From Simplicispira psychrophila DSM 11588 (GTDB lineage Bacteria > Pseudomonadota > Gammaproteobacteria > Burkholderiales > Burkholderiaceae_C), in the NCBI RefSeq assembly GCF_000688255.1, contig NZ_JHYS01000007.1, forward strand, positions 62,001 through 126,000: a stretch of DNA of 64,000 nucleotides, written 5' to 3'. Made by a program: the position numbers and the translations under genes. Positions 14,743-52,233 of the stretch are shown piece by piece; the first letter of the stretch is position 1, and the number at the start of each line of letters is the position of its first letter. The notes under the pieces were generated by a model. It searched no databases and was not told the DNA's origin. It worked only from the letters and a program-made list of their open reading frames with translations.

Positions 14743-14744
14743 AA

Positions 14745-14794: not shown

Positions 14795-15235
14795 TCAGCT
14801 ATTGCGGCCGGTGATGTAGTGCTTCATCTGCTCGATGATGAATTTCTGCTCGGAGATGATGTCCTTGACCAGGTCACCAATAGAAATCATGCCCACCAGC
14901 GCATCGTCCTCGACCACCGGCAGGTGGCGCAGACGGTTTTCCGTCATCAGCGCCATGCACTCTTCGCTGGTCTGTGTCGGCTGCACATACATCACCGCCG
15001 TGGTCATGACATCACGCACCAACGTAGCCACCGAAGTTCGCCCCATCAGGGCGATTTTGCGAGCGTAGTCGCGCTCGGTCACGATACCCACAATGGTGCT
15101 GCCTTCCATGACCAGCAAGGCACCAATGTGCAGGTCGGCCATGCTTTGCAGCGCCTCCAGTACCGAGGCCGTCGGCCGAATGGAATGCACCAGACCATCG
15201 GGTTTGGATTTGAGAATTTCAGCAACAACCGTCAT
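14795..15235 (-). CDS. tandem CBS-domain protein
   Basis: The 146-residue cytoplasmic protein consists of two CBS domains. The first (about residues 10-60) contains ALLVMEGSTIVGIVTERDY; the second (about 75-130) contains LRHLPVVEDDALVGMISIGDLVK. Such pairs bind adenine nucleotides and often sense energy state, but stand-alone versions have no assigned target. The start is supported by AGGAGG 5 bases before the ATG. Convergent with hpnC. Confidence 0.88.
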   Translation of the reverse strand: MTVVAEILKSKPDGLVHSIRPTASVLEALQSMADLHIGALLVMEGSTIVGIVTERDYARKIALMGRTSVATLVRDVMTTAVMYVQPTQTSEECMALMTENRLRHLPVVEDDALVGMISIGDLVKDIISEQKFIIEQMKHYITGRNS

Positions 15236-15297
15236 GGGATCCTCCTAAAAAATAGCGATATACGAGAGTATTTCAGTACTGTGGCGCGGCACGCCTG

Positions 15298-15945
15298 TCA
15301 GCGGCGGCCGCCGAGAAAATTACCACCAATTTTCATCAGATCGCTCAGGCCCACTTGGCCATCACCGTCCTGGTCCAGCAGGGAAGCGAGCAAACCACCG
15401 CCCAGGCCGCCTTGCTGCTGCACACGTGCATGTTCCTGCCCCAGCACCTGGCCCAGGCCATCGGCGCTCAGGCCGCCGGCGCTGGCGCGCTGCGCCAAGA
15501 AGGACATCACGATAGGCGCCAGCATCTGCAGCAATTGCCCGGCATGGGCACCCAGACCGGTGGCCTGGCCCAGACCCGCTTCAACGCGCTGCTGATTGCC
15601 ACCAAAAATATGGCCCAGGATGGCGGCGCCATCGGGTGCCGCACTGGCGCCGCCAGAGTGGCCGCCACCGAGCAGGCCACCCAGCAAACCACCGAGCCCG
15701 CCCAAGCCACTCAAACCGCCAGCCGCACCGTCCTGGTACTGCTGCAGTGCGCCGAACAAATCCATGGCGCCCTGCGGTTGTGCCGCATTGCGCCCCAGCG
15801 CACCCAGCATCAAGGGCAGCGCAGCACTCACGGCACTGTGCATCTGGGCGGTATCGGTGCCCAGCTGCTGCGCCATTTGTTGCAGCGGCGCGCCTTGCAA
15901 TTGGGACATCAGTTCTTCAACAAGGGAAGGCGAGGAGGTAGTCAT
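15298..15945 (-). CDS. DUF937/YidB-like protein with one EF-hand-like loop
   Basis: A protein of 215 residues. The N-terminal part (EELMSQLQGAPLQQMAQQLG, then SAALPLMLGALGRNA) is typical of the DUF937/YidB family, whose role is not well known. The middle is glycine-rich (GLGGLLGGLLGGG). Near the C-terminus DQDGDGQVGLSDL has the spacing of a calcium-binding EF-hand loop. The open frame continues to 16143, but the Met at 15945 begins the family-like MTTSSPSLVEEL and has AAGGAG-like bases upstream. No signal peptide. Confidence 0.78.
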   Translation of the reverse strand: MTTSSPSLVEELMSQLQGAPLQQMAQQLGTDTAQMHSAVSAALPLMLGALGRNAAQPQGAMDLFGALQQYQDGAAGGLSGLGGLGGLLGGLLGGGHSGGASAAPDGAAILGHIFGGNQQRVEAGLGQATGLGAHAGQLLQMLAPIVMSFLAQRASAGGLSADGLGQVLGQEHARVQQQGGLGGGLLASLLDQDGDGQVGLSDLMKIGGNFLGGRR

Positions 15946-16065
15946 GGAAGCTTCTTTCAAAAGGAGTGGCGTTGAAAGACCATCGTAGCGGCAAGACAGC
16001 CAAGCGGCCATGCAGATCGTGCCAGTGCCATGCCAGCGTGCACGAAGGCTCTGGCATGCCCAATC

Positions 16066-16116
16066 TGGTGCAGCCCAGCGCAACCATCTACCCAAGCTGG
16101 TGCAGCGCAGTGCACC
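16066..16116 (+). promoter_or_regulatory. putative activator sites upstream of nirB
   Basis: TGGTGCA occurs at 16066-16072 and 16098-16104, 32 bases (three helical turns) apart. The second is part of the inverted repeat GGTGCA-GCGCAG-TGCACC (16099-16116). These resemble NtrC half-sites (TGCACC/GGTGCA), although the order of the halves is reversed compared with the classical site. They lie about 130-180 bases upstream of a sigma-54 promoter, a typical enhancer distance. Confidence 0.4.
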
Positions 16117-16244
16117 GGACAGGGCCCTGGCAAGGACAGACAAGGGCGGGCGCCGGCTTTCATCTATTTGATTTCCATAGCAAGGGAGTCACTTCCCTCC
16201 AGCGCCAGCGCCCTATTTGATTCAAATTTACAGCCGACAAAACA

Positions 16245-16260
16245 TGGCATGAACATTGCT
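16245..16260 (+). promoter_or_regulatory. sigma-54 promoter of the nirBD cluster
   Basis: TGGCATGAACATTGCT matches the -24/-12 consensus TGGCAC-n5-TTGCW, with the invariant GG and GC separated by exactly 10 bases. It fits nitrogen control of nitrite assimilation. Transcription would begin near 16271, leaving a leader of about 100 bases before the nirB start. Confidence 0.65.
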
Positions 16261-16370
16261 TTATGTTTAGGGAAACCGCCCTAAGCGGATGGCACGTGGG
16301 CCATTGTGCAGTAGCGCTGCCGCTAGCTCCGCCACTTTTTTGTTTCTCTCAACTGCAAGCGAGGCTCCCG

Positions 16371-38284: not shown

Positions 38285-38764
38285 ATGTCTTTGCTTGGTC
38301 GGGCTTCACGTCGCCAATTTTTGCTGACCCTCTCGGGCTGCGTAGCAGGCATGGTCTCGCCAGCCCATTCGCACGCCTTTGCGAGCGCTGACGTCGCTAC
38401 CCTTCCCGCCAGCCAGGTGCAGGCGTTCATGGCGGTGTGCAATACCCTGGCCGGTACCGCCATCTCCAATACCCCCTTGGCACGCCAATATCTGGCCGTG
38501 CTGGTCGAGCATCTGGAGCCCTCGCAGATCCATGCCTTGCTGGCATTGGCGAAGCTGCCTGCGGGCACCGAAGGCGCCGCCTCGCTACGCAAACCTTTGC
38601 GGGAAGTGGTCGAGTTTGCCCTGCAACTGTGGATGAGCGGCATGGTCGGCAACGATCGTGTGCTGGCCTACGTCGAAGCGCCGGTGTGGTCAACCCTCCC
38701 GTTTACCAAGCCCCCGGGCGTGTGTGGCGGCGCCTTTGGCTATTGGGCTAACGCGCCGATCTGA
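38285..38764 (+). CDS. Tat-exported small subunit of an FAD-dependent dehydrogenase
   Basis: 159 residues. The twin-arginine signal RASRRQFLLTLSG is near the consensus S-R-R-x-F-L; a hydrophobic stretch and AHSHAFA cleavage region follow. The mature part (LVEHLEPSQIHALLALAKLP, LRKPLREVVEFALQLWMSG) and the C-terminal AFGYWANAPI resemble small subunits of FAD-linked sorbitol/gluconate/glucose dehydrogenases, which help export the larger flavoprotein. The GMC flavoprotein follows 78 bases later. GAGGA lies before the ATG. First gene of a ten-gene operon. The usual third subunit, a cytochrome c, is absent. Confidence 0.78.
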   Translation: MSLLGRASRRQFLLTLSGCVAGMVSPAHSHAFASADVATLPASQVQAFMAVCNTLAGTAISNTPLARQYLAVLVEHLEPSQIHALLALAKLPAGTEGAASLRKPLREVVEFALQLWMSGMVGNDRVLAYVEAPVWSTLPFTKPPGVCGGAFGYWANAPI

Positions 38765-38842
38765 AGCACGCCCCCCAATTTCATCTCGTTTTCGACCCGG
38801 GCATGCCCGGACCGCAGGCGCTCTCCTGTGAGACCCACACCC

Positions 38843-40495
38843 ATGACCCCTCAGAAACCCCAGAATGAAGTTTTATCGGCCGATGTGATCGTAATCGGCG
38901 CTGGCGCTGTCGGCAGCTTCATGGCTTGGCAATTGGCCAGCCAAGGCGCCAAGGTATTGATGATCGAAGCCGGGCCGCGCATCGACCGTGCCACCGCCGT
39001 GGGCCATTTCTACGACTCTGCGGTCAAGGGCCCCAACTCGCCCTACCCCAGCGAGGTCTATGCGCCGCATCCCATGCACGCGCACGACTACATGGTGCAG
39101 GCCGGGCCCCAAGTCTTTGGTGGCAGCTTTCTGCGTGCGGTGGGTGGCACCACTTGGCACTGGACGGGGTTTGCCACACGCTTTCGGCCCGACGACTTCA
39201 AGACCAAAACCTTGTATGGCGTCGGCGAGGACTGGCCGCTGGCCTACGAAGATTTGCTAGACCACTACCTGTTCATCGAGCGCGAATGGGGTACGGCAGG
39301 GGACAACGACTTTGATCAGGGTGGGCCACGCCACGGCAAATCATTTCCGTTGCCGCCGGTACCCATGACCTATGCCGACAAGCTGATCCGTGACGCCTTG
39401 GCGCCACTCGGCTATTCGGTCGGCCCCTTCAGCCATGCACGCAACTCCGAGCCGTTTGACGGACGTCCGCCTTGCTGCGGCAGTGCCAGTTGCGTGCCGA
39501 TTTGCCCGGTGGGCGCCAAGTACGATGCCAGTGTGCATGTCGCCAAAGCCGAGGCGGCGGGCGTACAGCTGCTGCCGCAGGCGCTGGTGGAACACATCGA
39601 GGTAGGGAGCGATTCCCTGATCCAAGGTCTTCGCATCCGTCACCCAGATGGCAGCCACACCATGGCCCGTGCCAAGCTGTATGTGCTGGCGGCGCATGCC
39701 ATCGAAACGCCCAATCTGCTACTGCGCTCGGCCCAACCGAATGCGCCTTTGGGTGTGGCCAACCGCAGCGATGCGGTCGGGCGCTATTTGATGGGCCAAG
39801 TCGATTTAGACACCCGCGCACTGACCCGCGATCTGCTCTATACCTATCGGGCACCCACCACCACGGGCGGCATTCTGGAGCTGCGCGACGGCCCGGTGCG
39901 CAAAGAACACGCCGCCATCGGCACCTCGTTTCTGAACCGTGGCTGGCGCACTGGGCTGGGGCCGATGCAGCGCTCGGCGCATCTGATCAAAGGGGGGCTG
40001 CGCGGCAGCGCATTGGCGGCGGCGCTGAACGATCAATGCGCCCGTGAGTTAGCCATCAACAGCTCGGTCGAAATACTGCCGGTGGCCAGTAACCGCATCC
40101 AGCCCGATCCCGAACTGCGCGATAGCAGTGGTATGCCGCGCCCTCGGGTGAGTTTCACGGTCGATGATTACAGTCTGCGCGCCATAGATAAAGCACGCCA
40201 GCGCCATGATGACATCACCAAAGCACTGGGGTGTACCGACATCATCAGCGACGAGCCTTCGGTGGCGACGGCCATCATTGCCGGCACCGCTCGCATGGGG
40301 ACGGATGCCGGGCAGTCGGTGGTTGATCCGTGGTGCCGCAGCCATGACCACGCCAATCTGTTCGTCGTCGGAACGGCTAATTTTCCGACGATGCCGATCA
40401 ACGCCCCAACCTTGACTGCTGTCGCGCTGGGATTGCGTGCCTTGCCCTTGCTGCACAAAGACCTTGTTGCTGGCCGCTTCAACCCTGTTGCCTGA
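38843..40495 (+). CDS. GMC-type FAD dehydrogenase, large subunit
   Basis: 550 residues. FAD fold VIVIGAGAVGSFMAWQLAS, then FGGSFLRAVGGTTWHWTG. A cysteine cluster CCGSASCVPICP (about residue 211) has the CC-x4-C-x3-C spacing that binds a [3Fe-4S] cluster in FAD glucose dehydrogenase. The C-terminal GMC domain reads IIAGTARMGTDAGQSVVD and NLFVVGTANFPTMPINAPTLT. The histidine that usually precedes GTxRMG is missing, which is odd for an active oxidase/dehydrogenase. No signal peptide: it probably crosses the membrane with the Tat small subunit upstream. ATG at 38843 is preferred over GTG at 38828. Confidence 0.85.
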   Translation: MTPQKPQNEVLSADVIVIGAGAVGSFMAWQLASQGAKVLMIEAGPRIDRATAVGHFYDSAVKGPNSPYPSEVYAPHPMHAHDYMVQAGPQVFGGSFLRAVGGTTWHWTGFATRFRPDDFKTKTLYGVGEDWPLAYEDLLDHYLFIEREWGTAGDNDFDQGGPRHGKSFPLPPVPMTYADKLIRDALAPLGYSVGPFSHARNSEPFDGRPPCCGSASCVPICPVGAKYDASVHVAKAEAAGVQLLPQALVEHIEVGSDSLIQGLRIRHPDGSHTMARAKLYVLAAHAIETPNLLLRSAQPNAPLGVANRSDAVGRYLMGQVDLDTRALTRDLLYTYRAPTTTGGILELRDGPVRKEHAAIGTSFLNRGWRTGLGPMQRSAHLIKGGLRGSALAAALNDQCARELAINSSVEILPVASNRIQPDPELRDSSGMPRPRVSFTVDDYSLRAIDKARQRHDDITKALGCTDIISDEPSVATAIIAGTARMGTDAGQSVVDPWCRSHDHANLFVVGTANFPTMPINAPTLTAVALGLRALPLLHKDLVAGRFNPVA

Positions 40496-40513
40496 TTTAT
40501 CTGGAGATATCAC

Positions 40514-42253
40514 ATGCTCAGACGCTCTTGGCTCCAAGCCTCAGCCCTTGCCTCGATGGTGGCCACGTTACCTATGCGCGCTAAAGCCGCTGTCAAGGCG
40601 CACCAATCCGATGCCACGGTCGGAACGGAAGGCTACAAACGCATCGTTCGCTCCATTCGTGATGCCTTTCCTTCGCCTACGCACTCGACATCCGCTGACA
40701 GCCGCTTTTCCCGACTCATGGCCTATGCCTTGCTAGAGTATGAAAAGCTGAAATCGCACCGCACTTTCTTGGGTAAGCGCAACGCATTGGACTATGCCGG
40801 CGCCCGTAAAGCGCGCGTCAACAAAGACATGGGCGAGATGCGCAGCACCATCCGCGAGACGGCACGCTACCTAGAAGGCCAGTTCACTTGGAGTCATCCG
40901 GATGTGCACCGTCTGCATGGCTCGTCCACCTCGGTGTCCATCATTGGGCAGTTGTATGGCTCGCTGGCAGACCCCAATACGGTGTGGGACGACCTGTCGC
41001 ACAAGGGCGCAGAAGCCGAGGTGCGTGTCTCTGCCATGTGCGCTGCCTTGGTCGGCTACGACCCTGAAAAGGCGCTGGGGTTGTTCACCTTTGGCGGCAC
41101 CGGCACCACGCTCTACGGCATCAAACTGGGTGCGGAGCGGGCGCAGCCCGGCTTGTTCACCGACGGCATACGACAGCCGCTGCGCGTGTTTGGCTCGGAT
41201 ATGGCGCACTACGCCAAGCTCAGTGCCTGCGCGTGGCTGGGCTTGGGCAGTCAGGCGGCTATTTCAGTGGCAACCGGTGAAGACAACGCCATGGACGTGG
41301 TGGCGCTAGAAAAAGCCTTGCGTGCGTGCATTGAAAAAGGGGAACGCATTGCGGCGATTGTGGTGACGATGGGCAGCACGGATGCGTTTGGTGTCGATGA
41401 CATCGTGGCCGTCAACGCGCTGCGCCAGCGTCTGGCCAAAGAGTATCGGCTTGATTACCTGCCCTACCTCCATGCCGATGCGGTGATTGGCTGGGCCTAT
41501 TCGGTGTTCAATGACTACGAGTTCGACGCCAATCCGCTGGGTATTCCTGCCGAAGCCCTGCATTCGCTCAAGACGGTGCGTGAGCGTATCCAGCACCTGT
41601 CGCTGGCCGATTCGCTGGGCATTGACTTCCACAAGAGCGGCTACACCCCGTACGCATCGAGTCTGTTCTTGGCGGGCGATGCCCAGCTGCTCAACCCGGT
41701 GCGCCGCGACAAAGTGGCTATGCCGTATTTGTTCCAGTTTGGTGAATACGACCCCGGTATCTACACCTTGGAGTGTTCGCGTTCTGGCGGCCCGGTGCTG
41801 GCGGCGCTGTCGAACCTGATGCTGCTGGGCAAAGATGGTTTTCGGGGTTTATTGAGCCATTGCTTGCAGATGTCGCACTTGCTGCGTGATAAGGCGCGCG
41901 GCCTGCCATGGTTGACGGTACTGAACGAAGACAACCATGGTGCTGTGGTCGTGATCCGCGTCTATCCGGACGGGGTGGATGCCGACAGCGCCTACCAAGC
42001 TGAGAGAAGCAACGCCGCCCAGCGCACCACCTTGCTTGAACACAATGAGTTCAACAAAGCGGTCTACATGAGTACGCGCGAAGCCGCTGAGTCTGGTGAA
42101 AGTCCGGTTTTTGTGCAGACCAACCGTTACCGCGACACCACCTATGGCGAGCCGATTGTGGGCATTAAATTCTTTACGCTGTCGGTTTTTACCGACCCCA
42201 AATCCATTGATAACGCTTTGGCCGCATTGATGCAGGCACGCAAAAAAGTATGA
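40514..42253 (+). CDS. exported PLP-dependent group II decarboxylase
   Basis: 579 residues. The N-terminus MLRRSWLQASALASMVATLP with AKAA cleavage looks like a Tat-type signal peptide. The rest is a group II (aromatic/glutamate-type) amino-acid decarboxylase: LFTFGGTGTTLYGIKLGAER, the PLP-ring aspartate Asp322 in YLHADAVIGWA and the Schiff-base lysine Lys374 in LGIDFHKSGYTPYASS. Cofactor-bearing folded enzymes need Tat, so a periplasmic location is plausible, unusual for this family. It overlaps the next gene by 4 bases (ATGA) and follows the dehydrogenase by 18. The substrate is unknown. Confidence 0.8.
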   Translation: MLRRSWLQASALASMVATLPMRAKAAVKAHQSDATVGTEGYKRIVRSIRDAFPSPTHSTSADSRFSRLMAYALLEYEKLKSHRTFLGKRNALDYAGARKARVNKDMGEMRSTIRETARYLEGQFTWSHPDVHRLHGSSTSVSIIGQLYGSLADPNTVWDDLSHKGAEAEVRVSAMCAALVGYDPEKALGLFTFGGTGTTLYGIKLGAERAQPGLFTDGIRQPLRVFGSDMAHYAKLSACAWLGLGSQAAISVATGEDNAMDVVALEKALRACIEKGERIAAIVVTMGSTDAFGVDDIVAVNALRQRLAKEYRLDYLPYLHADAVIGWAYSVFNDYEFDANPLGIPAEALHSLKTVRERIQHLSLADSLGIDFHKSGYTPYASSLFLAGDAQLLNPVRRDKVAMPYLFQFGEYDPGIYTLECSRSGGPVLAALSNLMLLGKDGFRGLLSHCLQMSHLLRDKARGLPWLTVLNEDNHGAVVVIRVYPDGVDADSAYQAERSNAAQRTTLLEHNEFNKAVYMSTREAAESGESPVFVQTNRYRDTTYGEPIVGIKFFTLSVFTDPKSIDNALAALMQARKKV

Positions 42254-43053
42254 AAAATTCTGCATCTCTGCTTCAGCGCCCGCGCTCGTGGGTCGCCCAT
42301 ACCTTGCTCGCTGGTCTGTTCACAGCCTCTCTGCTTGCCCTGCCCCCAGCGTCCATGGCGCGCGAGGTGGCCGCACCGGTTGCGGCGACCACAGTCGTCG
42401 CGCAGCCGCTGCAGATACCCAACAGTCTGTTTGTGCTGTCACACCCTATTGGGCAGCAGCGCTTGTTGCAAAGCGACTACCGCCAAGCCTATTGGCCGCT
42501 GGCTACTTACTTTGAGACCCAGCGCAACCAAGCCTATTGCTCCGTAGCTACCTCGGTGATTGCACTCAACGCCTTGGGCTTGCCCCGTCCCGTGACAGCG
42601 TTGTACCCAGACTTCCCCTTTTTCACACAACAAGACTTCTTTGCCAATGTCGATCGGCGCATCGCCAATCCGGAGGTGGTATCCAAGGAAGGCATGACGC
42701 TAGACCAATTGGCGACGGTCTTGGTGCAGTTTCCGGTGGATGTCGAGAAAATTTCTGGGGACGCGCTGGATGCGCCCCAGTTGCGCGAGCTGCTGAAGAA
42801 GCATTTACGCGAGCAGGATCGTTTTGTGCTGTTCAACTTCAACCGCCGTTTTATTGGCGAGGTCGGTGGTGGCCACTGGTCGCCGTTGGCGGCCTACCAT
42901 GAGGCCAGCGATTCGGTGCTGCTGATGGACGTGGCGCGCTACAAATACCCGCCGGTGTGGGTGCCGCTGGCAGACCTGTTGCAGGCGGCCCAAGACCCTG
43001 ACAGCGTCAGCGGCAAGGCGCGTGGTTTGCTGGTCGTTACCAAGAAGCGTTAG
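42250..43053 (+). CDS. exported phytochelatin synthase-like gamma-glutamylcysteine transferase
   Basis: 267 residues. A Sec-type signal peptide (hydrophobic HTLLAGLFTASLLALPPASMA) is followed by a papain-like phytochelatin synthase domain. The triad is visible: Cys97 in NQAYCSVATSVIALNALG, His209 in GGGHWSPLAAYHE and Asp227 in LLMDVARYKYPPVW, with the His-Asp spacing of 18 seen in plant enzymes. Bacterial homologues mostly cleave glycine from glutathione. Exported, it could act on glutathione or gamma-glutamyl thiols in the periplasm. Starts inside the decarboxylase stop; the next gene starts 3 bases after its stop. Confidence 0.85.
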   Translation: MKNSASLLQRPRSWVAHTLLAGLFTASLLALPPASMAREVAAPVAATTVVAQPLQIPNSLFVLSHPIGQQRLLQSDYRQAYWPLATYFETQRNQAYCSVATSVIALNALGLPRPVTALYPDFPFFTQQDFFANVDRRIANPEVVSKEGMTLDQLATVLVQFPVDVEKISGDALDAPQLRELLKKHLREQDRFVLFNFNRRFIGEVGGGHWSPLAAYHEASDSVLLMDVARYKYPPVWVPLADLLQAAQDPDSVSGKARGLLVVTKKR

Positions 43054-43056
43054 ACC

Positions 43057-44145
43057 ATGACCGCGCAGGTGCTTGCTCTGGCGGCGGGTCGAGACCACAG
43101 CCTGGTCCTGCGGGCCGGTCAGCGGCTGGTTGGCTGGGGCGGTGACGGCACCGGGCGCTTTCCTGCGCCGGAGGGCGTGTGCTCTGCGCCACCGTCTGAC
43201 AATAGAGCCGTGTATGTGCCGACTGACGTGCAGTTGCAGCAAATTACGGCCAGTGCCGGCATCAGTCTGGCGCTCGATGTGCAGGGTGCCGCGTATGTTT
43301 GGGGAGCCAACCGCGCGGGTTTGGGTGGCCGGCTTTCCTCCATCATGGCGCAGCAGCCCCGGCGGTTGCTGGGTCTGCCAGCCTTGGCGCAACTCAGTGG
43401 GAGCGAATTTTTTACCCTCGCCCGTGCCCGCGATGGCCGCCTGTACCACTGGGGGCTGACGCCGGGTTCCGCGCAGGCGCGCAATGTGGCGCCTGTGCGG
43501 GTTGCAGCTGTGCCCGCCATCACTGACTGCTGTGCCGGCGCCGGCCATGCGTTGTTGCTCGACGGCCTGCACCGCGTATGGGCTTGGGGCGCCAATGCTG
43601 CCGGCCAATTGGGCGCGGGCCACTTGCAGGACTACAGCGCGCCAGCGCTGGTGCCTATGCCGCGCAAGATCGTCGCGCTGGCAGCGGGGGCCAGCCACAG
43701 TCTGGCCATTGATGCCCGGGGCCAAGCTTGGGCGTGGGGCAGTAACCAGCACGGGCAGCTGGGCGACGGCAGCGCGCCCTACCGCACTGCGCCGCACCAA
43801 GTGTCCTTGCCTGAAGCGGTGACCCACGTGGCGGCAGGCCAGTATGTGTCGTATGCGCTGGGGCGCTCTGGCCGTTTGTACGCTTGGGGCTGGAACGCCC
43901 GGGGCCAGCTGGGACAAGGCCACACCGAAGCTTTATCGGGCGTGCAAACCGTGAAGCATTTGCCGGCGCTGAAAAAAATCAGCGCCGGCCAAGGCCATGT
44001 GCTTGTCAGCGACGGCTGGCAGGTATGGGCATGGGGAGACAACCGCAACGGCCAACTGGGCCAGATGGCAGCGTACCGGGCGAAGCCCGGCCAGCTTAAC
44101 GATACAGCCTCTCCCGTAACAACAAAACAAGAAAGCACCACATGA
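43057..44145 (+). CDS. RCC1-repeat seven-bladed propeller protein
   Basis: 362 residues made of seven RCC1-type repeats, recognisable by A-x-G-x-x-H-S-x-x-L cores: AAGRDHSLVL, GISLALD, SEFFTLAR, AGAGHALLLD, AAGASHSLAID, AAGQYVSYAL and SAGQGHVLVS, each followed by a VWAWG-like strand (AWGANAAGQLG, AWGSNQHGQLG, AWGWNARGQLGQG). Seven repeats complete one propeller. No signal peptide is seen, unlike its neighbours, so it may remain in the cytoplasm or be carried by a partner. It is probably a scaffold or binding protein; bacterial RCC1 proteins have few known roles. The stop overlaps the start of the oxidase gene. Confidence 0.85.
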   Translation: MTAQVLALAAGRDHSLVLRAGQRLVGWGGDGTGRFPAPEGVCSAPPSDNRAVYVPTDVQLQQITASAGISLALDVQGAAYVWGANRAGLGGRLSSIMAQQPRRLLGLPALAQLSGSEFFTLARARDGRLYHWGLTPGSAQARNVAPVRVAAVPAITDCCAGAGHALLLDGLHRVWAWGANAAGQLGAGHLQDYSAPALVPMPRKIVALAAGASHSLAIDARGQAWAWGSNQHGQLGDGSAPYRTAPHQVSLPEAVTHVAAGQYVSYALGRSGRLYAWGWNARGQLGQGHTEALSGVQTVKHLPALKKISAGQGHVLVSDGWQVWAWGDNRNGQLGQMAAYRAKPGQLNDTASPVTTKQESTT

Positions 44146-45839
44146 GCCAAGCCTACACACGCCGTGATTTTTTGAACGTCTCTTGGAAGCTCGGTGCCGG
44201 CGCTGTTTTGCCCGCTGCACTGGTCGCTTGCGGCGGCAGCAATACCTCGGGCGAGCCGGGAACACCCGAAACTTTTGTGGAGCCGCTGCGCTTAGTGGCG
44301 CGCGATGGCGTGCTCGACTACACCTTGCGCATGGTCTATGCAGACCTGCACCTCAATGGCAAGCCGGTGCACTTGCGCACCTACAACGCCATGGTGCCAG
44401 CGCCTACCTTGCAGGTGCGCGCCGGTGAGACCTTGCGCATCCGCGTGGTCAATGACCTGCCGCCTAATCCGCAAAGCACCGAGCCCGCAGAGCATTTGCG
44501 CTACATGAACAGCGCCAATTTGCACACCCATGGCCTGCATGTGGCACCTGGCTTGGTCGGCGAGAACCTGTATGGCGACTACGTAGTGGATAGCTCCGAG
44601 TCTGCGGTACAGCCCGGACAGTCACGCCAGCATCAATACGCCATCGTGGCCGACCATCCAGCCGGTACGTCTTGGTACCACCCGCATTTGCATGGCGCTA
44701 CCGCAGTGCAAGTGGGCAGTGGCATGGCCGGTGCCATTGTGATCACCGGCCCGCTGGACGACGTGCCCGAAATCGCCGCTGCGCGCGATCGCGTGATGAT
44801 GTTCCAAGCACCCATCTTTGACGCCCAAGGTAAGCTGGAAAGCTTCTCGCAGGTGGCTAACCCGGATGCCGAGCCAGCCTTTCTGATCAACGGCGTGCGC
44901 CGTCCCACCTTGGTTTTGCGTCCGGGCCAGGTCGAGCGCTGGCGCTTGATCAATGCCGGCATTGCCAACTACCTCAATCTGGCATTGGAGAAGCATTCTC
45001 TGCACTTGATTGCGCTGGATTCTTGCCCGCGCGCGCAGCCTCAAGTTTTTTCGCCCGATACGGCTGAAGGACTGGTGCTGGCCCCCGGCAACCGGGCCGA
45101 CATCCTGATCCAAGCCGGTGCACCGGGGCGCTATGTGCTGTCCACCAAGTCTTATGACATGGGTTTCCCCGCACTGCTGGCCGAAGACATCTTGGCCGAT
45201 ATCGTTGTCGAGGGTGTGCCGCTAATGATGGCGCTGCCCGCCAGCCCCTTGCCGGTGCCGGCGGCGCTGAAATCGATCAGTGACGAAGAGCTGGCTGCCC
45301 ACGGTGGGCTGCGCCGCAACATCGTATTGCGCTCGGTCTTTAACAATAGCGGCGCACCGCTGACAGAAGCACCGGCGATCGATGCCCTCGACTTGCCGCC
45401 CGGTGAACTGGGCCAGTGGCAGTATCAAACCGATGCCACTTTTCTGTCCGACACCGCCTTCACCATGGGTGCGGGTGGCAAGTCGGCATCTACCCATCCG
45501 CCCATGCCGCAACGCTTGGCACCGTTCCAGTCGCACCGCGCTGTCTGCCAAACCGTAGCGCTCAATAGCGTGGAGGAGTGGACTGTCTACAACATGAATC
45601 AGGTGCAGCATCCGTTTCACATCCACATCAACCCCTTTGAGGTGGTGAAAATCAATGGCTTGCCGGTCAAGCCTTTTTGGTCAGACACCATCGGACTGCC
45701 GCGCAACGGTACGCCCGAGGCGCCAACATCAGTGACATTTCGCACCCGCTTTACCGATTTTTCAGGGGCTTATGTGATGCACTGCCACATCCTCGCGCAC
45801 GAAGATATGGGAATGATGCAGATCGTCGAAGTGGTATGA
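44142..45839 (+). CDS. Tat-exported multicopper oxidase lipoprotein
   Basis: 565 residues. The signal YTRRDFLNVSWKLGAGAVLP carries a twin-arginine motif and ends at ALVACGG, a lipobox, so the mature enzyme is probably a membrane-anchored lipoprotein. All four copper motifs are intact: NLHTHGLH, WYHPHLHG, HPFHIHINPF and HCHILAHEDMGM (type 1 ligand Met). It is a laccase-like oxidase using oxygen; no Met-rich region typical of CueO is obvious. Starts inside the RCC1 stop and overlaps the permease start by ATGA. It may reoxidise the flavoprotein or oxidise the pathway product; both are inference. Confidence 0.88.
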   Translation: MSQAYTRRDFLNVSWKLGAGAVLPAALVACGGSNTSGEPGTPETFVEPLRLVARDGVLDYTLRMVYADLHLNGKPVHLRTYNAMVPAPTLQVRAGETLRIRVVNDLPPNPQSTEPAEHLRYMNSANLHTHGLHVAPGLVGENLYGDYVVDSSESAVQPGQSRQHQYAIVADHPAGTSWYHPHLHGATAVQVGSGMAGAIVITGPLDDVPEIAAARDRVMMFQAPIFDAQGKLESFSQVANPDAEPAFLINGVRRPTLVLRPGQVERWRLINAGIANYLNLALEKHSLHLIALDSCPRAQPQVFSPDTAEGLVLAPGNRADILIQAGAPGRYVLSTKSYDMGFPALLAEDILADIVVEGVPLMMALPASPLPVPAALKSISDEELAAHGGLRRNIVLRSVFNNSGAPLTEAPAIDALDLPPGELGQWQYQTDATFLSDTAFTMGAGGKSASTHPPMPQRLAPFQSHRAVCQTVALNSVEEWTVYNMNQVQHPFHIHINPFEVVKINGLPVKPFWSDTIGLPRNGTPEAPTSVTFRTRFTDFSGAYVMHCHILAHEDMGMMQIVEVV

Positions 45840-47197
45840 GCGTGCGGGTGCAGCAGCGCCCCCAGACCACCCGGCAGGGCCGGTGGCCTGATGGTTTTTC
45901 ACATCCTGCCGCTTGGGTTTTGTGCGCTGCGGCTGCCTTGCTCGGCGCGCTCATTTATCAATGGGAGCCGCTCCTGCCCGTGCTGCTGGGTGCTAGTAGT
46001 CGGCAGGCTGGCATCTGGCTGACCATGGCCCTGCTGCTGGGGCTGTGGATGATTCCGTCCTTACCACGGATTTTTTCGATCTTGTTGGCCTTGCTGGCCA
46101 TGCGCCTGTTTGACCTTGCTTCTACTGCCCTGCTACTGACCGGCGCGGTCAGTGATGTGGCGCTGTGGTGGCTGGGTTCCTTTGCTGTGTGCGTAGCGGC
46201 GCAGCAGTGTGGATTACTGGGCGTTTTGTGGGCCTACGCGCTGCGCAGCCTACAGACGCCGGGTGTTCAAGGGCTGCGCCCACCCGCCGTGCTGTGGCTG
46301 ACAATGGTTTTTTCTTTGTTGCCATCGCCCATGCAGGCCAGCCGCTGGACACGTAGTTTTTGTCTAGCGCCGTGGTGCGCATCACCCGCTGTCTCGCGTG
46401 ATGTGGTCAGTGCGGCGCAGCTGGCGGCACGGCTGGCATGGCTACCCGCCCATCCGGTCAACCTAATGCTTTTGGCACTGCTGCCGATGGGCGGACTAGA
46501 CCGGTTTGTCCCAGCCCATTGGGTGTTGAGCACTTGGCCTTTACTACTGCTGGCGCTGGTCTATGCCACCTATGCACAGTGGCGGGCACCGCTTGCGCCA
46601 GACTTTGCACCCCCGGTGCCAGAGCTTGTGCCAGTGCCGCAAGAAGACCGCTTTGCCATGCAATGCACCGGTGCCATTGCCGTGGTTTTAGTGCTGATGG
46701 TGGCGCTGCAGCCATTTCATGGATTCGCGCCCGGTCTCGTATCGCTGTTGGCCATGGTGGCGCTGTTTGCTTTGAAGATTCTGCCCCCTCAGAGCTACCA
46801 CCGGGGGGTGGACTGGCAACTGTTCGTTATCGCGACAGTGCTGCCGGGGTTGATCGCTAGTTTTGCGGCGGCCCTGCCAGCCTGGAGCCTGGATGCCGGC
46901 GGTACATTTTTAGCATTGCCTTTTTTATTTTTTCTGCGCATGGTGCTGCCACCAGGGGTGACGATCGTGGCCGCGCTGGTGCTGGCCGTGTCTTGGTCGT
47001 CCACTCATGGACACGATCTGCTCAATACCGCCCTGTCGGTGCTGGTGGCGTTCCATCTGGTTGATTTCATGTTCTGTCGCAACACCGCTGGCTCGGCGGT
47101 CACACGCTGGCAACTGGCTTGGAACACTCTGCGCCGCCCTGTGACGTGGGGAACATGCGCTGCGTACTATGCTTGGGCAGGGTGGTATGGATGGTGA
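45836..47197 (+). CDS. DASS/SLC13-like permease, module 1
   Basis: 453 residues with about 11-12 hydrophobic helices. It resembles the divalent anion/sodium symporter (SLC13) fold but is divergent: HPVNLMLLALLP matches NPANFIVLGILP in the second permease of the operon, and SLLPSPMQASRW lies where that protein has LFIPSTAGRLQ. Those two segments correspond to the paired helix-hairpin motifs of the family, here changed in the substrate positions. It overlaps the oxidase stop (ATGA). An anion symporter in single-component families needs no binding protein, yet a binding-protein-like gene follows. Confidence 0.65.
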   Translation: MSVRVQQRPQTTRQGRWPDGFSHPAAWVLCAAAALLGALIYQWEPLLPVLLGASSRQAGIWLTMALLLGLWMIPSLPRIFSILLALLAMRLFDLASTALLLTGAVSDVALWWLGSFAVCVAAQQCGLLGVLWAYALRSLQTPGVQGLRPPAVLWLTMVFSLLPSPMQASRWTRSFCLAPWCASPAVSRDVVSAAQLAARLAWLPAHPVNLMLLALLPMGGLDRFVPAHWVLSTWPLLLLALVYATYAQWRAPLAPDFAPPVPELVPVPQEDRFAMQCTGAIAVVLVLMVALQPFHGFAPGLVSLLAMVALFALKILPPQSYHRGVDWQLFVIATVLPGLIASFAAALPAWSLDAGGTFLALPFLFFLRMVLPPGVTIVAALVLAVSWSSTHGHDLLNTALSVLVAFHLVDFMFCRNTAGSAVTRWQLAWNTLRRPVTWGTCAAYYAWAGWYGW

Positions 47198-48279
47198 CGG
47201 TACACCTTGGGATGCAGCGCAAGCGCCGTTTTTGGGTGGCCATGGGGGTCGTGGCGATGGTTGCGGCGCTGGCGTGGACGGGGATGCGACGTCCGGCGAT
47301 TTTGGTATTGCACAGCCAGAGCGAGCGGATTCCGTGGACTCGGGGCGTGGATGCCGGGATTGACCGTGTCATTGACCAAAACAGTGGCATCCGCCTGCAA
47401 CGCATTTATTTCTCTGCGCATAACCAAGAGCAGGCGGTCACGCAGATGACCGAAGTCCGCCGCTTCATTGCCCGCTGGCGGCCCGATGTGATCTTGGCGG
47501 TAGATGATCTCGCGCAAGCGCAAGTGGGCGCTGCTTATCTGGCCAAAGGCACGCCGCAGATTGTTTATAGCGGTATCGAAGACCAAGAGCGAACACTGTC
47601 ACACAGTGCCATGCCCCAGGTTCGAGGAATTGCCGAGCGCACGCCTTGGCCGATTGTTGAGCGCACTCTGTTGCAGCTCGCAGAACTCAGCAGCGTGCAG
47701 GCAGCCAGTTCGGGCCCGTTTAAGCCTCAACGCATTGCGCTGCTCTCGGACACCGGTTCAGCGGCAGAAGAAGAGGCCAGAGGCTTCGCCGCGCATGTTT
47801 GGCAGGCGGCGCAACCTGTCGGAGCGTGGCGCTGCACCACCTTAGAACAATGGCAGCAAGCGCTGGATGAAATTGCCCAGCAGGCCGATGTGGTGGTTAT
47901 TGGTGACTATCGCAACCTTGCCGGGCCCGAGGGTTTGTCCCGCGCTGCGTGGAGACAGCTGTTGGCCAACACGGTGTTGGCGCGCCTACAGCTGCCGATG
48001 ACGGCGTTGTCGGCCTATGCCGTGTCTGACGGCATACCGATGGGCATCCTGCCATCGCCCATCGAGCAAGGCGAGGTAGCAGCCCAAATGGCGCTGCATA
48101 TCTCCCGAGAAGGTGCCTCTCCTGCGGCGCTGCCAGAGCACCAGAAACACCTGCTGACGCAAGACTTCGCGCTGATTTTGAATCCGCAGCAAATGCAACG
48201 GCGCCATCTCTCCTTGGGTGCCATGGATACCTACTACGCACGTATTTCTGGCCGTTTGATCGGCAGCGGCACGCCATGA
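47191..48279 (+). CDS. membrane-anchored substrate-binding-like protein, module 1
   Basis: 362 residues. A basic start (QRKRRF) precedes one membrane helix (WVAMGVVAMVAALAW), then a periplasmic domain beginning PAILVLHSQSERIPWTRGVD, which resembles the ABC_sub_bind (PF04392) type of periplasmic binding domain. Further PBP-like strands include PDVILAVDDLAQAQVGAAYL, PQIVYSGIED and DVVVIGDYRNLAG. No ATPase or ABC permease is nearby. It overlaps the permease stop by 7 bases and the next permease start by 4. The alternative start at 47212 is possible. A similar gene closes the operon. Confidence 0.65.
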   Translation: MVTVHLGMQRKRRFWVAMGVVAMVAALAWTGMRRPAILVLHSQSERIPWTRGVDAGIDRVIDQNSGIRLQRIYFSAHNQEQAVTQMTEVRRFIARWRPDVILAVDDLAQAQVGAAYLAKGTPQIVYSGIEDQERTLSHSAMPQVRGIAERTPWPIVERTLLQLAELSSVQAASSGPFKPQRIALLSDTGSAAEEEARGFAAHVWQAAQPVGAWRCTTLEQWQQALDEIAQQADVVVIGDYRNLAGPEGLSRAAWRQLLANTVLARLQLPMTALSAYAVSDGIPMGILPSPIEQGEVAAQMALHISREGASPAALPEHQKHLLTQDFALILNPQQMQRRHLSLGAMDTYYARISGRLIGSGTP

Positions 48280-49991
48280 CTCTGCCACTGCGCGAGCATC
48301 CTTTATGGCGGCACATCGACCGCTCCAGCGGTTATTTACTGGAAACGATGGCGCGGGCCGTGGTCTGGCAGGACACATCCGAGCTGGCACGCATGGCGCA
48401 AGACAGCGTGGTGTTGGGCTGGACGCGCGACGGACAAGCCCTCACCTTGGTGGCAGCGCTGCAACTGGAGTGGACTGCGCCGCCGCTACTGCCCGCCGGA
48501 GCCGGCTCAGGGTGGCTGATTCCCAGCGATCCCCTGCGGGTGCTGCTACAGGATCAGGAGGCTTGCCGTGCGTACCTAGAGTGCGCGCCAGCACCCGCTG
48601 AAATGACCGCCAGCGCCCTTGCCCTGTCGGCACGCGAAGTCTGGGGCTGGCTGCTGGCCTTGGGGTTGCCGGTCTTGGCCATGCTGCTACTTGGCGGGCG
48701 CGGCGACACGCTGGCACAGTGGTTGCTATTTTTGTCGGCCATCAGCGCCGGCTTGTGCGTGTGGGTGCTGGGCTTGGCACCGCCGTTTGTTGGTGCCCTG
48801 CTGGCGCTGCTGTTGATGATGGCGGTCAGCCACTTGCCGCCTGCGCAGGCGCTGGCAGGGTTTGGCAGCGGTAGCTTTTTCTTGCTGCTTGGCATGTTTG
48901 GTATCAGTTCTGCGGTGCAGCACAGCGGACTAATGGAGCGCCTTTTGAGTGTGCTGCTACGGCGTTTTTCGCACACTACGCGGATGTTGCAAGCATGTCT
49001 GGTGCTGGTGGGCGCGGTGATGACCTTGTTCATTCCGAGCACTGCTGGGCGATTACAACTGGTAGCGCCGATGGTCAAGGTGCTGGCGCACCCCGGCAAC
49101 AGCGCGGTGCTGGCCTTTGCCGCTTTGTCGGGCAGCACCTTGTTTTCCACCGCATTTTTGCTGGGCAATCCGGCCAATTTCATCGTGCTGGGCATCCTGC
49201 CAGAGCACTGGCAGCCGCATGTCAACTGGCTCACTTGGTTCCAGTGTGCCGCTGTGTACACGCTGGTGATGGGGGTTTGTTTGGCGTTGGGACTGGTGGG
49301 CCGAGCGGGTCAACGCCCCCAAGATACCGGTGCCGGCGCATGGAAGCCCACCGTCCTGCCACGCTTCTCTTCCGCCGAAGCCATCACGGCCGTGGCATTG
49401 GCCTGCCTCACGCTGGGTGTAGCGCTGGGCAACGTTCACCACATTGAAACGGCTTGGTTGGCGCTCTTCGTGCTGCTGTTGCTACTGGCGACAGGTGTGC
49501 TTTCTGTCGACCGGTTGCACAAGGATATCCATTGGCCGATTCTGATTTATTTGCTGTGTACCGTAGGTTTTGCACGCAGCTTTTCCCATATGGGCATACA
49601 GGAATGGATCGCCGGAAATATGGGACTGCTAGAGCAGCTGATGCGTGAAGCGCAGGTGGCCTTTCTACTGCTGCTGGCTATCGCGGTGGTGCTGTTGCGG
49701 CTGGTGTTGCCGGCGCTGGTGTGCATCACCACACTGTGTGCGGTGTTGCTGCCTTTGGCGGATACCCATGGCATGAACCCGCTGGTGGTCGGATTTGTAG
49801 TGCTGACCGCCAGTGAAATATGGTTTTTTCCGCACCAGAGTACAGACTACATCCTGTTTCGCGAATCCCTGAATATGCCGCAGAGCCAGAGTGCTGGGAT
49901 GCTGCGCAGCAACGCCCGCATTCAAGTCTGTCGCCTTTTGGCCTTGGTGGTATCGATTCCCTACTGGTATCACTTGGGGTATTTGCAATGA
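48276..49991 (+). CDS. DASS/SLC13 permease with N-terminal domain, module 2
   Basis: 571 residues. Residues 1 to about 112 form a soluble domain of unknown type (no signal peptide). The rest is a recognisable SLC13-type permease with about 11 helices: GFGSGSFFLLLGMFGISSAVQ, LFIPSTAGRLQLVAPMV and GNPANFIVLGILPEH in the first half, and FVVLTASEIWFFPHQST in the second. Family members import citrate, dicarboxylates or sulfate with sodium, or export organic acids. The N-terminal extension could be a sensor or interaction domain. ATGA overlaps join it to both neighbours. Confidence 0.72.
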   Translation: MTLPLREHPLWRHIDRSSGYLLETMARAVVWQDTSELARMAQDSVVLGWTRDGQALTLVAALQLEWTAPPLLPAGAGSGWLIPSDPLRVLLQDQEACRAYLECAPAPAEMTASALALSAREVWGWLLALGLPVLAMLLLGGRGDTLAQWLLFLSAISAGLCVWVLGLAPPFVGALLALLLMMAVSHLPPAQALAGFGSGSFFLLLGMFGISSAVQHSGLMERLLSVLLRRFSHTTRMLQACLVLVGAVMTLFIPSTAGRLQLVAPMVKVLAHPGNSAVLAFAALSGSTLFSTAFLLGNPANFIVLGILPEHWQPHVNWLTWFQCAAVYTLVMGVCLALGLVGRAGQRPQDTGAGAWKPTVLPRFSSAEAITAVALACLTLGVALGNVHHIETAWLALFVLLLLLATGVLSVDRLHKDIHWPILIYLLCTVGFARSFSHMGIQEWIAGNMGLLEQLMREAQVAFLLLLAIAVVLLRLVLPALVCITTLCAVLLPLADTHGMNPLVVGFVVLTASEIWFFPHQSTDYILFRESLNMPQSQSAGMLRSNARIQVCRLLALVVSIPYWYHLGYLQ

Positions 49992-50950
49992 GCCGCACCC
50001 TGCGTTGGGCCTGGGTCGCGCTGTTTTTGCTGCTGGCGATGGGGGCGGTGGTGACCAATATGAACAGCCGCCGGATTTTGGTCTTGCACGAGGGCGCAGC
50101 CGACAGTGCGGCAGTGCGCGCCTTTGGCCAAGGGGTGGGCTCCATGTTGGGACAAGTCTCTCACCTCAAACTGCGCCAGCAATATCTGGGCTTTGACCTT
50201 GGGGTGTGCCACCGCGTGCTGGATCAACTACGGGCTTTTGATCCTGACGCAGTGATCGCCGAAGGGCTGAAGGCGCGCCAATGTCTTGATAGCCAAACCG
50301 CGCAAGCACAGCCCATCGTGGTGTCGATGCCGGAGACACCCTCTTTGAGGATCGATCAGGGCAGTTATGTGGCCGCGTGGGCCAAGGTCTTGGCGGACAT
50401 CGCCCCCCCAGGCGGCCTGCTGCTGGCGCTGCCTGGGGACGACCAGGAAGGGCAGCTGGAATACCGCTTACTGGGGGATGCCGCCCGAAGAGTGGGTTTG
50501 CGCATCCAGTCTTTGGGGCAGGCAGTGGTTTTAGAGCCCCGTGTACTGGCGAATGCTGTCCGCCTGGCTGCACCGGACATGGTGTTCGTCGGCCGCACGC
50601 TGGGGGCACAACTGGGGGCACAACACAAGGACACACAGGACAAACCCCAAACAGGCCTGTTGCAGGCACTGCGGCGATCCACACCGAACCCAATTCTGGC
50701 CTCCCGACTTGAAAGCCTGGAACTGGGCGCTGACCTGGTGTTACTACAGGCTCCCGAGCAGCGAGGCGAGTTGCTGGCGCAGGCCACACTGGCAGCGCTG
50801 GCGCGCGGTACAGCTGCGCTACCTGAGCCCACGCCACCCTATGAGATGGCGGTGGGCTTGCGCCAGGATTTCGTGGCGCGCCAGCACCATGCCTTGCCGT
50901 CCTTTTACGTACTCAGTGCGCGACTGGCCGGCTTTTTGACCGGACCTTGA
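49988..50950 (+). CDS. membrane-anchored substrate-binding-like protein, module 2
   Basis: 320 residues. One N-terminal helix (WAWVALFLLLAMGAVVT) anchors a periplasmic domain starting SRRILVLHEGAADSAAVRAF, followed by DAVIAEGLKARQCLD and DMVFVGRTLGAQLG, patterned like the module-1 protein at 47191. The two share order and size with their permeases, suggesting tandem duplication and divergence. It is the last gene of the operon; a dispersed repeat follows 7 bases after its stop. No function can be assigned. Confidence 0.62.
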   Translation: MSRTLRWAWVALFLLLAMGAVVTNMNSRRILVLHEGAADSAAVRAFGQGVGSMLGQVSHLKLRQQYLGFDLGVCHRVLDQLRAFDPDAVIAEGLKARQCLDSQTAQAQPIVVSMPETPSLRIDQGSYVAAWAKVLADIAPPGGLLLALPGDDQEGQLEYRLLGDAARRVGLRIQSLGQAVVLEPRVLANAVRLAAPDMVFVGRTLGAQLGAQHKDTQDKPQTGLLQALRRSTPNPILASRLESLELGADLVLLQAPEQRGELLAQATLAALARGTAALPEPTPPYEMAVGLRQDFVARQHHALPSFYVLSARLAGFLTGP

Positions 50951-50957
50951 ATGCCTA

Positions 50958-51010
50958 AAAAGCCGCAAGCGCTGTACCAGCAAGCGCGAGCAGCTATCAA
51001 AAAAGACTAC
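50958..51010 (-). repeat. dispersed repeat copy 10 (3' end of the operon)
   Basis: The minus strand reads TTTTTTGATAGCTGCTCGCG, then ACAGCGCTTGCGGCTTTTT. It lies between the end of the operon and the convergent hydrolase gene, and may serve as a 3' end for both. Confidence 0.55.
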
Positions 51011-52233
51011 AAATCCTGCGCTATCGGCGCCAGCTTACCCAGCATGAAACCAATGAACGGCGCCACACAGCCGATGTGGCTTGACGGCGTGGCAGGGCAG
51101 TCGGTCAGGCTGACCAGCTCTCCTGCGCCTTGTGCCTGCATGGCAGCCAGGGTACTGGTGGAACTGGCGTAGGGCACGGTGCGGTCGTCCCGGCCGTGGT
51201 AGAGGTACACTGGCGCCTGCGGGCGCCAGTCGTGCACATTGCTGATGCGGGCGGTGGCGGCCACGTTATCCGCCAGAAAATTGTCCAGAAACAGCGGATC
51301 GATCACGGTATCGGCATCGTCCGGCAGGAGCTCCCTGAGCAGTGCACGGCGCACTTCGCGTTGTGCGCTGCCGCCCAGATAGCGCAGAAAACCCGGGTTG
51401 ATGAGCGCTCCCACCAAGGAATTTTCTTTGCGCACAATATTAATCAGGCTGTCGAGCGTGACTTGCACGTTATAGGGGCCAGCACCGGGGACTGCGGCAC
51501 GCAGTTGCTGCAAGTGCACCGAGTTGTTCATCTGCAGGGCACGGTGCGCTGCCATGGTGGCGTAGCCGCCTTCGGAGTAGCCGGTCAGAAACAGCTGCTG
51601 GTTATCGACCACTCCCTCTTGGCTGCGCCAGGTTTTGGCGGCCGTCAGAAAGTCTACGACCGACGCCGCCATGGGTGCTGACTGCAGGTAGGGATGTGGT
51701 GTGCCCTTGCTGACGCCATAACCGACGTAATCGGGCGCCAGCACGATGTAGCCCAGCGAGGCCATCACTACGGCTACTTCAGAGGCCACAGCGTTGTTGC
51801 TGGGAGTTTCGGCATCGCGAAAGATAGTGCCGTGCTGGTAGGACAGCAGCGGGCTTTTGGCGCCAGCGGGCTTCACAGGCACGCTAACCAGCCCCGAGGC
51901 GCGCACCGCTTGCCCCTGCGCACCAATGGTGAGGTATTCCAGCCGGTACGAAGTGACGGCGTAGCGCGGCTGCAGACCTTGCACGAGCGACTCCTTATCT
52001 GCCACGGCAGCACTGATGTCGGCTTGCGCAATGGTGCCCAGCAGGGTCGCCGCCTGCAGCGTGCCCTGGCTATTTGGATCGGACGGCTGTACGGGCGTAT
52101 TGCCACCACCATCGTTGCCAGCATTACCGCTGCTGTCCTGCGCTTTATCGCCACCGCCGCAGGCCGCCAAAGAAAAAACCAGTATCGCCACGCCTGTCAG
52201 ACGAGCACAGTGAGATGAAAAATTGCGCACCAC
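51007..52233 (-). CDS. secreted alpha/beta hydrolase lipoprotein
   Basis: 408 residues. VRNFSSHCARLTGVAILVFSLAACGGG is a signal peptide with lipobox SLAAC, so the enzyme is probably a lipoprotein. After a low-complexity linker the hydrolase domain shows the oxyanion segment LLSYQHGTIF, YIVLAPDYVGYGVS, the nucleophile elbow LTGYSEGGYAT and PVYLYHGRDDRTVPYA with the acid residue. Lipase/esterase or peptidase activity is plausible. The start is GTG at 52233 with GGAGG 5 bases upstream; the longer frame lacks a signal. Confidence 0.82.
   Translation of the reverse strand: MVRNFSSHCARLTGVAILVFSLAACGGGDKAQDSSGNAGNDGGGNTPVQPSDPNSQGTLQAATLLGTIAQADISAAVADKESLVQGLQPRYAVTSYRLEYLTIGAQGQAVRASGLVSVPVKPAGAKSPLLSYQHGTIFRDAETPSNNAVASEVAVVMASLGYIVLAPDYVGYGVSKGTPHPYLQSAPMAASVVDFLTAAKTWRSQEGVVDNQQLFLTGYSEGGYATMAAHRALQMNNSVHLQQLRAAVPGAGPYNVQVTLDSLINIVRKENSLVGALINPGFLRYLGGSAQREVRRALLRELLPDDADTVIDPLFLDNFLADNVAATARISNVHDWRPQAPVYLYHGRDDRTVPYASSTSTLAAMQAQGAGELVSLTDCPATPSSHIGCVAPFIGFMLGKLAPIAQDL

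Follow-up and report, generated by a model that had tools for sequence, protein, structure and literature searches.

Background and overview

In the flavin adenine dinucleotide (FAD)-dependent glucose dehydrogenase (FAD-GDH) complex of Burkholderia cepacia (BcGDH), a small hitchhiker subunit carries the alpha subunit out, and in complexes of this kind electrons pass from the sugar to FAD, then to a [3Fe-4S] cluster and on to a triheme cytochrome; the published account that describes these features also gives His476 and Asn519 as the likely catalytic pair (PMC6719666). Here we describe a ten-gene operon (g1–g10, positions 38285–50950) in a window of 64,000 nucleotides from Simplicispira psychrophila DSM 11588 (contig NZ_JHYS01000007.1), the flavoprotein of which, g2, is by homology a descendant of FAD-glucose/fructose dehydrogenase alpha subunits. 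Like BcGDH (6a2u/8grj) and fructose dehydrogenase (FDH; 7w2j), the operon encodes a GMC alpha subunit with [3Fe-4S] cysteines and a hitchhiker small subunit exported by twin-arginine translocation (Tat). Unlike them, it has other residues at the positions of His476 and Asn519 and no gene for a triheme beta subunit, a multicopper oxidase (MCO) and a phytochelatin synthase-like enzyme (PCS) being linked instead. Two of the four tested features of direct-electron-transfer (DET)-type FAD dehydrogenase complexes were thus found, the catalytic pair and the triheme gene being absent. The operon belongs to a clade of GMC proteins in which both catalytic residues are replaced, the iron–sulfur ligands are kept and a copper oxidase has taken the place of a multiheme cytochrome as the linked partner.

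The other enzymes of the operon also have described counterparts. PCS (g4) shares with Nostoc Alr0975 (2btw, 2bu3, 6tho) its fold family and Cys/His/Asp triad; it is exported by its N-terminus and, unlike Alr0975, shares its operon with genes for an MCO and a GMC protein. The MCO (g6) has the four copper motifs of the Thermus laccase (2xu9, 6wcn) but is a Tat lipoprotein linked to a flavo-iron–sulfur protein. In pyoverdine maturation, which an earlier note on this DNA had taken as a precedent, PvdN and PvdP are exported pyridoxal phosphate (PLP) and copper enzymes. Compared at the family level, exported PLP and copper enzymes are common to both systems, whereas g3 belongs to the Pyridoxal_deC family and g6 is an MCO of the laccase type. 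We found no description of the GMC/MCO linkage or of the gene set in the open-licence literature, which agrees with the earlier note, whose author knew of no such system; judged against that literature, the module appears to be a previously undescribed form of FAD dehydrogenase complex with a changed partner. The genes are as follows.

g1, 38285–38764, plus strand: small subunit (hitchhiker or gamma) of an FAD dehydrogenase complex, exported by Tat (PF12318, E 4.7e-11); core
g2, 38828–40495, plus strand: GMC flavoprotein with [3Fe-4S] cysteines C216, C217, C222 and C226; core
g3, 40514–42253, plus strand: PLP decarboxylase of group II, with a Tat-like signal at its N-terminus (PF00282, E 6.4e-14)
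g4, 42250–43053, plus strand: exported PCS (PF05023, E 6e-56); core of types A and C
g5, 43057–44145, plus strand: RCC1 propeller (PF25390/PF00415)
g6, 44142–45839, plus strand: Tat MCO with lipobox LVAC (PF07731/PF07732/PF00394); core
g7, 45836–47197, plus strand: permease with many hydrophobic segments, remote homologue of the g9 family
g8, 47191–48279, plus strand: membrane-anchored periplasmic binding-protein-like protein with one N-terminal hydrophobic segment
g9, 48276–49991, plus strand: DASS/CitMHS-type permease with an N-terminal extension of about 115 amino acids (PF03600, PF00939)
g10, 49988–50950, plus strand: second binding-protein-like protein, remote g8 homologue, with one N-terminal hydrophobic segment

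The flavoprotein has lost the catalytic pair

The best structural matches of g2 in the PDB were 6a2u and 8grj (FAD-GDH; E 1.1e-115 to 6a2u) and fructose dehydrogenase. At the positions of the catalytic His and Asn, g2 has I483 and A526, a loss that the earlier note had not mentioned; when g2 was aligned to FDH with HMMER, I483 stood opposite the residue that is changed in 8k6j (H1147A), and A482 opposite N1146. A MAFFT alignment of 49 GMC proteins extended this result to all 23 proteins from operons of types A, B and C (defined below), in which the His column holds Ile, Val or Met and the Asn column Ala or Ser. Both residues are kept in all 26 compared GMC relatives without an MCO. The position of Asn475, beside the catalytic His, changed along with both members of the pair, whereas the four iron–sulfur cysteines and the Rossmann motif are present in 23 of the 23 pair-less proteins. 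Types A and C have an Asn one place ahead of the Asn column, which may be a shifted partner; type B has no such Asn. The sugar chemistry for which the family is known should be gone from g2.

Five further residues are invariant in the pair-less clade (23/23) and rare among the 26 others: T113 (found in 3), W154 (0), H203 (1), H290 (2) and T366 (1). A482, beside the lost His, is likewise invariant in the clade and found in none of the others. From GMC topology, T113 presumably lies near the flavin.

The residues divide the neighbourhoods in the same way. Each of the 22 pair-less loci outside the window has an MCO gene, that of L150 running off its contig, and the window has one as well, but none of the 26 pair-keeping neighbourhoods does. 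By contrast, an open reading frame (ORF) with at least three CxxCH motifs was present in 18 of the 26 pair-keeping neighbourhoods and at none of the 22 pair-less loci; that table does not include the window, among whose ten gene products no triheme cytochrome was found by Pfam family. When short loci were examined, many of them at places that overlap the large-neighbourhood set, a PCS or MCO was in reach of all 23 pair-less rows except that of the window (L084). Within the window's own family (180 genomes; matches at E <= 1e-130), the pair-less form came from the window genome alone; at the five other places, spread over four genomes, the pair is intact. A natural control is provided by a paralogue in a type-A genome (L116 in G1129), which has kept both residues and lacks an MCO gene in its vicinity.

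When the 49 GMC proteins were placed in a quick, midpoint-rooted tree, the 23 pair-less ones lay on one side of a branch with a Shimodaira–Hasegawa-like approximate likelihood-ratio (SH-aLRT) value of 99, and types A and C grouped together (SH-aLRT 98) with type B outside. Because the pair-less proteins share a single branch, which requires one change on the tree, the pair would most simply have been lost once, with PCS joining in the ancestor of types A and C.

Two of the pair-keeping GMC proteins (L116, 8381–10309; L160, 4512–6371) are about 47% identical to g2 and have no triheme ORF or MCO nearby.

The core module occurs in three gene orders

Core loci were found by GMC-alignment searches of the phylum and two orders, followed by reading of the neighbourhoods. 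Of the 39 places from one search, 35 were read, 10 of them as short loci only and 25 as large neighbourhoods (the window and 24 that were fetched); in the further searches, large neighbourhoods were read for 12 of 12 and 11 of 13 places. The fetched neighbourhoods measure 10.7 to 20 kb, and the shorter ones (for example, L150, L160, L179, L180 and L181) could hide a partner gene. The other two of those 13 places (L136 and L138), read as short loci only, have a pair-less GMC protein with a PCS in reach.

Homologues of g1, g2 and g6 occur together at 23 of 23 core loci, 14 of which also have PCS, in three gene orders. Type A comprises six genes (MCO, small cytochrome c, PCS, small subunit, GMC protein and a membrane protein resembling the major facilitator superfamily), all of them present at each of its 12 loci (L081, L114, L115, L143–L145 and L154–L159). 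Type B, with nine loci (L082, L083 and L146–L152), consists of the small subunit, GMC protein and MCO. Type C is the ten-gene arrangement, found at two loci, both in Simplicispira. When plasmids were searched by tblastn with g2, g4 and g6 singly, each query returned the same one record, from Salipiger sp. CCB-MM3, in which the six genes stand in the type A order, from the MCO to the membrane protein; relatives of this last protein match MFS_1 weakly, below the cut-off. In Skermanella mucosa and S. rosea, genes for the small subunit, GMC protein and MCO are consecutive. Salipiger and both Skermanella species are Alphaproteobacteria.

A few genera supply much of the type A and B set, so its loci do not amount to 21 independent observations. 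Nevertheless, linkage of the core is kept in three gene orders and has thus outlived rearrangement; together with its spread across Salipiger, Skermanella and Simplicispira, this speaks for a working unit. Homologues of g1, g2, g4 and g6 are therefore not merely scattered, which the earlier note had named as the outcome that would count against it, and the core recurs in other proteobacterial classes. The same note had looked to recurrence of all ten families in fixed order in unrelated genomes: the full set was seen again in the congeneric Simplicispira metamorpha, but farther away only the core recurs, and in three orders.

On both Skermanella plasmids (L082, 9822–24079; L083, 9851–24044), the three-gene module is flanked on one side by a pyruvate kinase gene and on the other by gcl, hyi/otnI and glxR (glyoxylate-to-glycerate), with genes of a tripartite tricarboxylate transporter upstream.

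The copper oxidase and the phytochelatin synthase-like enzyme

The structure matches of g6 are laccases. All four copper motifs are complete in 22 of the 23 linked MCOs, g6 included, the remaining one (L150) being truncated by the contig end, and most linked MCOs carry a twin-arginine motif of their own. The g6 scores lie below the curated NCBIfam cut-offs for CueO (116.4 versus 525 bits) and CopA (78.4 versus 479 bits). None of the linked MCOs has a Met-rich stretch (at most 4 Met per 25 residues); for an MCO encoded next to a copper ATPase (L184), the count is just 3.

Structures of Alr0975 are the matches of g4, and the Cys/His/Asp triad is kept in the PCS of all 14 loci that have one, g4 included. 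The closest relative of g4 (L073; 58% identity) is an exported PCS at 2943–3875 of an 8-kb contig without the other operon genes. In the class search for PCS, which gave a match in 14 non-window genomes, eight neighbourhoods were read and all eight lacked the other nine genes, two of the contigs being short. Simplicispira might have recruited its PCS independently of type A, given that the PCS tree sets g4 beside the solitary L073 protein; however, an approximately unbiased (AU) test does not reject a single A + C clade of PCS (p 0.24), and the GMC tree favours one gain. By eye, the L073 gene lies downstream of an apparent toxin–antitoxin gene pair.

A putative flavo-iron–sulfur/copper oxidase module

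With confidence a little short of even, we favour the view that the core is a periplasmic, probably oxygen-dependent flavo-iron–sulfur/MCO module derived from FAD-glucose/fructose dehydrogenase complexes, with altered flavin chemistry. By analogy with the FAD-GDH hitchhiker subunit, g1 would carry g2 across the membrane; electrons would then pass between the flavo-iron–sulfur protein and the MCO, directly or via the small cytochrome c of type A, and end on O2. The donor would be neither sugar nor alcohol but a compound that needs no general base, such as a thiol or metal-thiolate, and the PCS in types A and C suggests a glutathione-derived thiol. In Simplicispira, g4 might trim glutathione or one of its conjugates, the decarboxylase g3, likewise exported, might act on an amino-acid part and the two permease/binding-protein pairs might move small anions, so that the decarboxylase and transport pairs would be accessories for uptake, export or further processing. 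Beyond export, the kept cofactor ligands and the lost catalytic pair, all that we say of the module is what we infer.

A more complete scheme seems to us rather unlikely to hold in every part: g2, lacking the dyad and with a new conserved site at H203/H290, would oxidize a thiol or other base-independent donor and pass electrons to the MCO that replaces the multiheme cytochrome; PCS-like trimming of glutathione conjugates would supply the donor in two of the three operon types; and Simplicispira would add an exported PLP decarboxylase and dedicated transporters. If g2 and the MCO do exchange electrons, they would form an unrecognized route coupling a flavo-iron–sulfur protein to O2 in the periplasm, and bacterial phytochelatin synthase-like enzymes would, if the reading is true, gain a defined genetic setting. 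The three- and six-gene versions offer small, easily expressed and tested forms of the module.

Several observations weigh against the favoured view. The pair-keeping relatives were the best-scoring matches rather than a random sample, and loss of the residues and linkage to the MCO represent one evolutionary event, so the counts given above are not many independent confirmations. Moreover, the five pair-keeping relatives nearest the clade (L116, L160, L161, L162 and L178) have neither a triheme ORF nor an MCO in reach, and the cytochrome may therefore have gone before the MCO was gained. The FAD-site pattern GG[TS]xW[HN]W is found in 16 of the 23 pair-less proteins versus 21 of the 26 others. 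PCS is absent from all nine type B loci, so a PCS-made thiol is not required for the core. Finally, g3, g5 and g7–g10 were seen alongside the core only in the two Simplicispira genomes, and their link to it is thus confined to two congeneric species. This last point also fails to support the suggestion of the earlier note that a single amine or thiol passes through every step in turn, as does the occurrence elsewhere, without the core, of permease pairs, g3-like decarboxylases and most of the PCS relatives read; in addition, g5 has no visible signal and g2 lacks the residues thought to carry out the family's known oxidation.

We considered four other explanations. It is unlikely, in our estimate, that g2 is a pseudoenzyme, serving as a structural partner or pure electron relay while the MCO alone acts, for instance on phenolics. 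Loss of the catalytic residues in 23 of 23 proteins alongside intact copper motifs in all MCOs but the truncated one fits such a division of labour, but the iron–sulfur cysteines and Rossmann motif are kept throughout, the new clade-wide residues suggest a retained redox role, and most MCOs have their own twin-arginine motif and so need no carrier. Somewhat less probable still is that g2 continues to dehydrogenate hydroxylated or amine substrates with a replacement base, for which H203 and H290, invariant in the clade and rare outside it, are the candidates, and with the MCO as acceptor instead of the cytochrome. The high overall similarity of g2 to FAD-GDH agrees with this idea, and the concerted change of both pair members and the neighbouring Asn475 position argues against it.

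CueO-type MCOs and phytochelatin synthases have known roles in metal handling, and on these grounds the genes could form a cluster for copper or another thiophilic metal, the MCO acting as a cuprous oxidase and PCS making metal-binding peptides. By eye, three type-A loci from a single genus (L114, L143 and L145) have a ZnuA-like gene close by, and L115 has an ArsC-like one; around L081, L082 and L083 the annotation shows no metal transporter, other neighbours not having been scanned by family. The g6 scores fall far under the curated CueO and CopA cut-offs, and the lack of Met-rich stretches points the same way, although weakly, since the copper-ATPase-linked MCO is also Met-poor. As a metal cluster would moreover leave the flavo-iron–sulfur protein and the decarboxylase without a role, we regard this explanation as improbable. 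Least credible of all, and very improbable in our view, is that the genes have no joint function and are held together by chance or selfish clustering: g3, g5 and g7–g10 join the core in one genus only, and PCS and permease pairs also occur alone elsewhere, but the core persists in 23 of 23 loci and three gene orders.

The ten-gene set and its layout

All ten genes recur in Simplicispira metamorpha DSM 1837 in an order identical to that of the window, with identities for g1 to g10 of 73, 89, 89, 81, 78, 86, 63, 65, 73 and 68%, respectively. The window flanks, as DNA and as ORFs, matched nothing at the S. metamorpha locus, where the comparison takes in 7.7 kb on the upstream side of the operon and 1.3 kb on the downstream side. 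We found the complete set at no third locus, and it is rare. Among 149 related genomes searched with g3, full-length matches came only from the two Simplicispira species, a third congeneric match being partial (27%); a contig scan with g3 across genomes returned S. metamorpha alone, but because it used two narrow peptide patterns, the absence of g3 elsewhere is weak evidence.

In the window, ORF analysis bore out the row of ten plus-strand genes described by the earlier note as mostly overlapping: over 12.7 kb, six of the nine junctions overlap (by 4, 4, 4, 7, 4 and 4 bases) and the other three are gaps of 63, 18 and 3 bases. Probable ATG starts are at 45836 (g7), 47191 (g8) and 49988 (g10); g2 starts at the GTG at 38828 or at a downstream in-frame ATG. 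A sigma-70 consensus scan gave 0 promoter-like sites (4.2 in shuffles), and no terminator-like site is listed within 49495–51100, hence none at the 3′ end of the operon. From gene spacing and conserved order, and from these alone, we infer that the ten genes are transcribed as a single unit.

Pfam agreed with the family labels that had been given to g1–g6 and g9 (FAD-SLDH small subunit, GMC, Pyridoxal_deC, Phytochelatin, RCC1, Cu-oxidase and Na_sulph_symp/CitMHS, respectively); g7, g8 and g10 had no Pfam match at the thresholds applied. The [3Fe-4S]-type cysteines noticed in g2 all align with the four of Burkholderia FAD-GDH, and the reading of g1 as a Tat small subunit is supported by PF12318 and the twin-arginine motif SRRQFLL. 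Inspection also revealed the export signals expected of the decarboxylase (g3, Tat-like), PCS (g4, Sec-like) and MCO lipoprotein (g6, Tat plus lipobox). By eye, no signal peptide is visible in g5 and none in g2, the latter as expected for the cargo of a hitchhiker subunit.

The decarboxylase and the transport genes

The decarboxylase g3 keeps the lysine of an FHK motif (K374), which aligns with that of GadC-linked relatives. Decarboxylases 28–35% identical to g3, each followed by a gene for a GadC antiporter or amino acid permease, are located on plasmids of Plesiomonas, Polymorphobacter, Escherichia albertii and Sphingomonas (L022–L025); those of L022 and L024 are without the N-terminal signal segment of g3. 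These permease-linked plasmid decarboxylases are the nearest distant g3 relatives found, and they do not explain the operon.

The pairs g7–g8 and g9–g10 resemble each other as diverged copies of a single permease/binding-protein pair would: g7 matched the g9-family profile and g10 the g8-family profile in hhalign (97.6% and 96.5% probability, respectively). With two distant g8 relatives being ABC_sub_bind proteins, this substantiates the two permease/binding-protein-like pairs proposed earlier. Against the curated DASS model TIGR00785, g9 scored 77 bits, under the cut-off of 198.6, while reaching those of the broader PF00939 and PF03600; tblastn searches of plasmids with g9 and g8 gave no matches. 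A DASS-type permease adjoins a membrane-anchored ABC_sub_bind-like protein in all eight of the best-scoring distant g8 relatives (L041–L045 and L224–L226), which suggests a putative binding-protein-assisted DASS transporter. Weaker g8 relatives were without a permease in 3 of 3 neighbourhoods and 21 of 21 short loci.

Among the permeases of the distant pairs that were scanned, two have an N-terminal cyclic-nucleotide (cNMP)-binding domain. The extension of about 115 amino acids in g9 (window 48276–48620) occupies the place of this domain in the distant relatives and is possibly a degenerate copy of it. At one of the distant pairs (L042), a long RCC1-repeat protein (14545–17418) is encoded two genes from the permease/binding-protein pair, much as g5 lies near g7–g10, possibly by chance.

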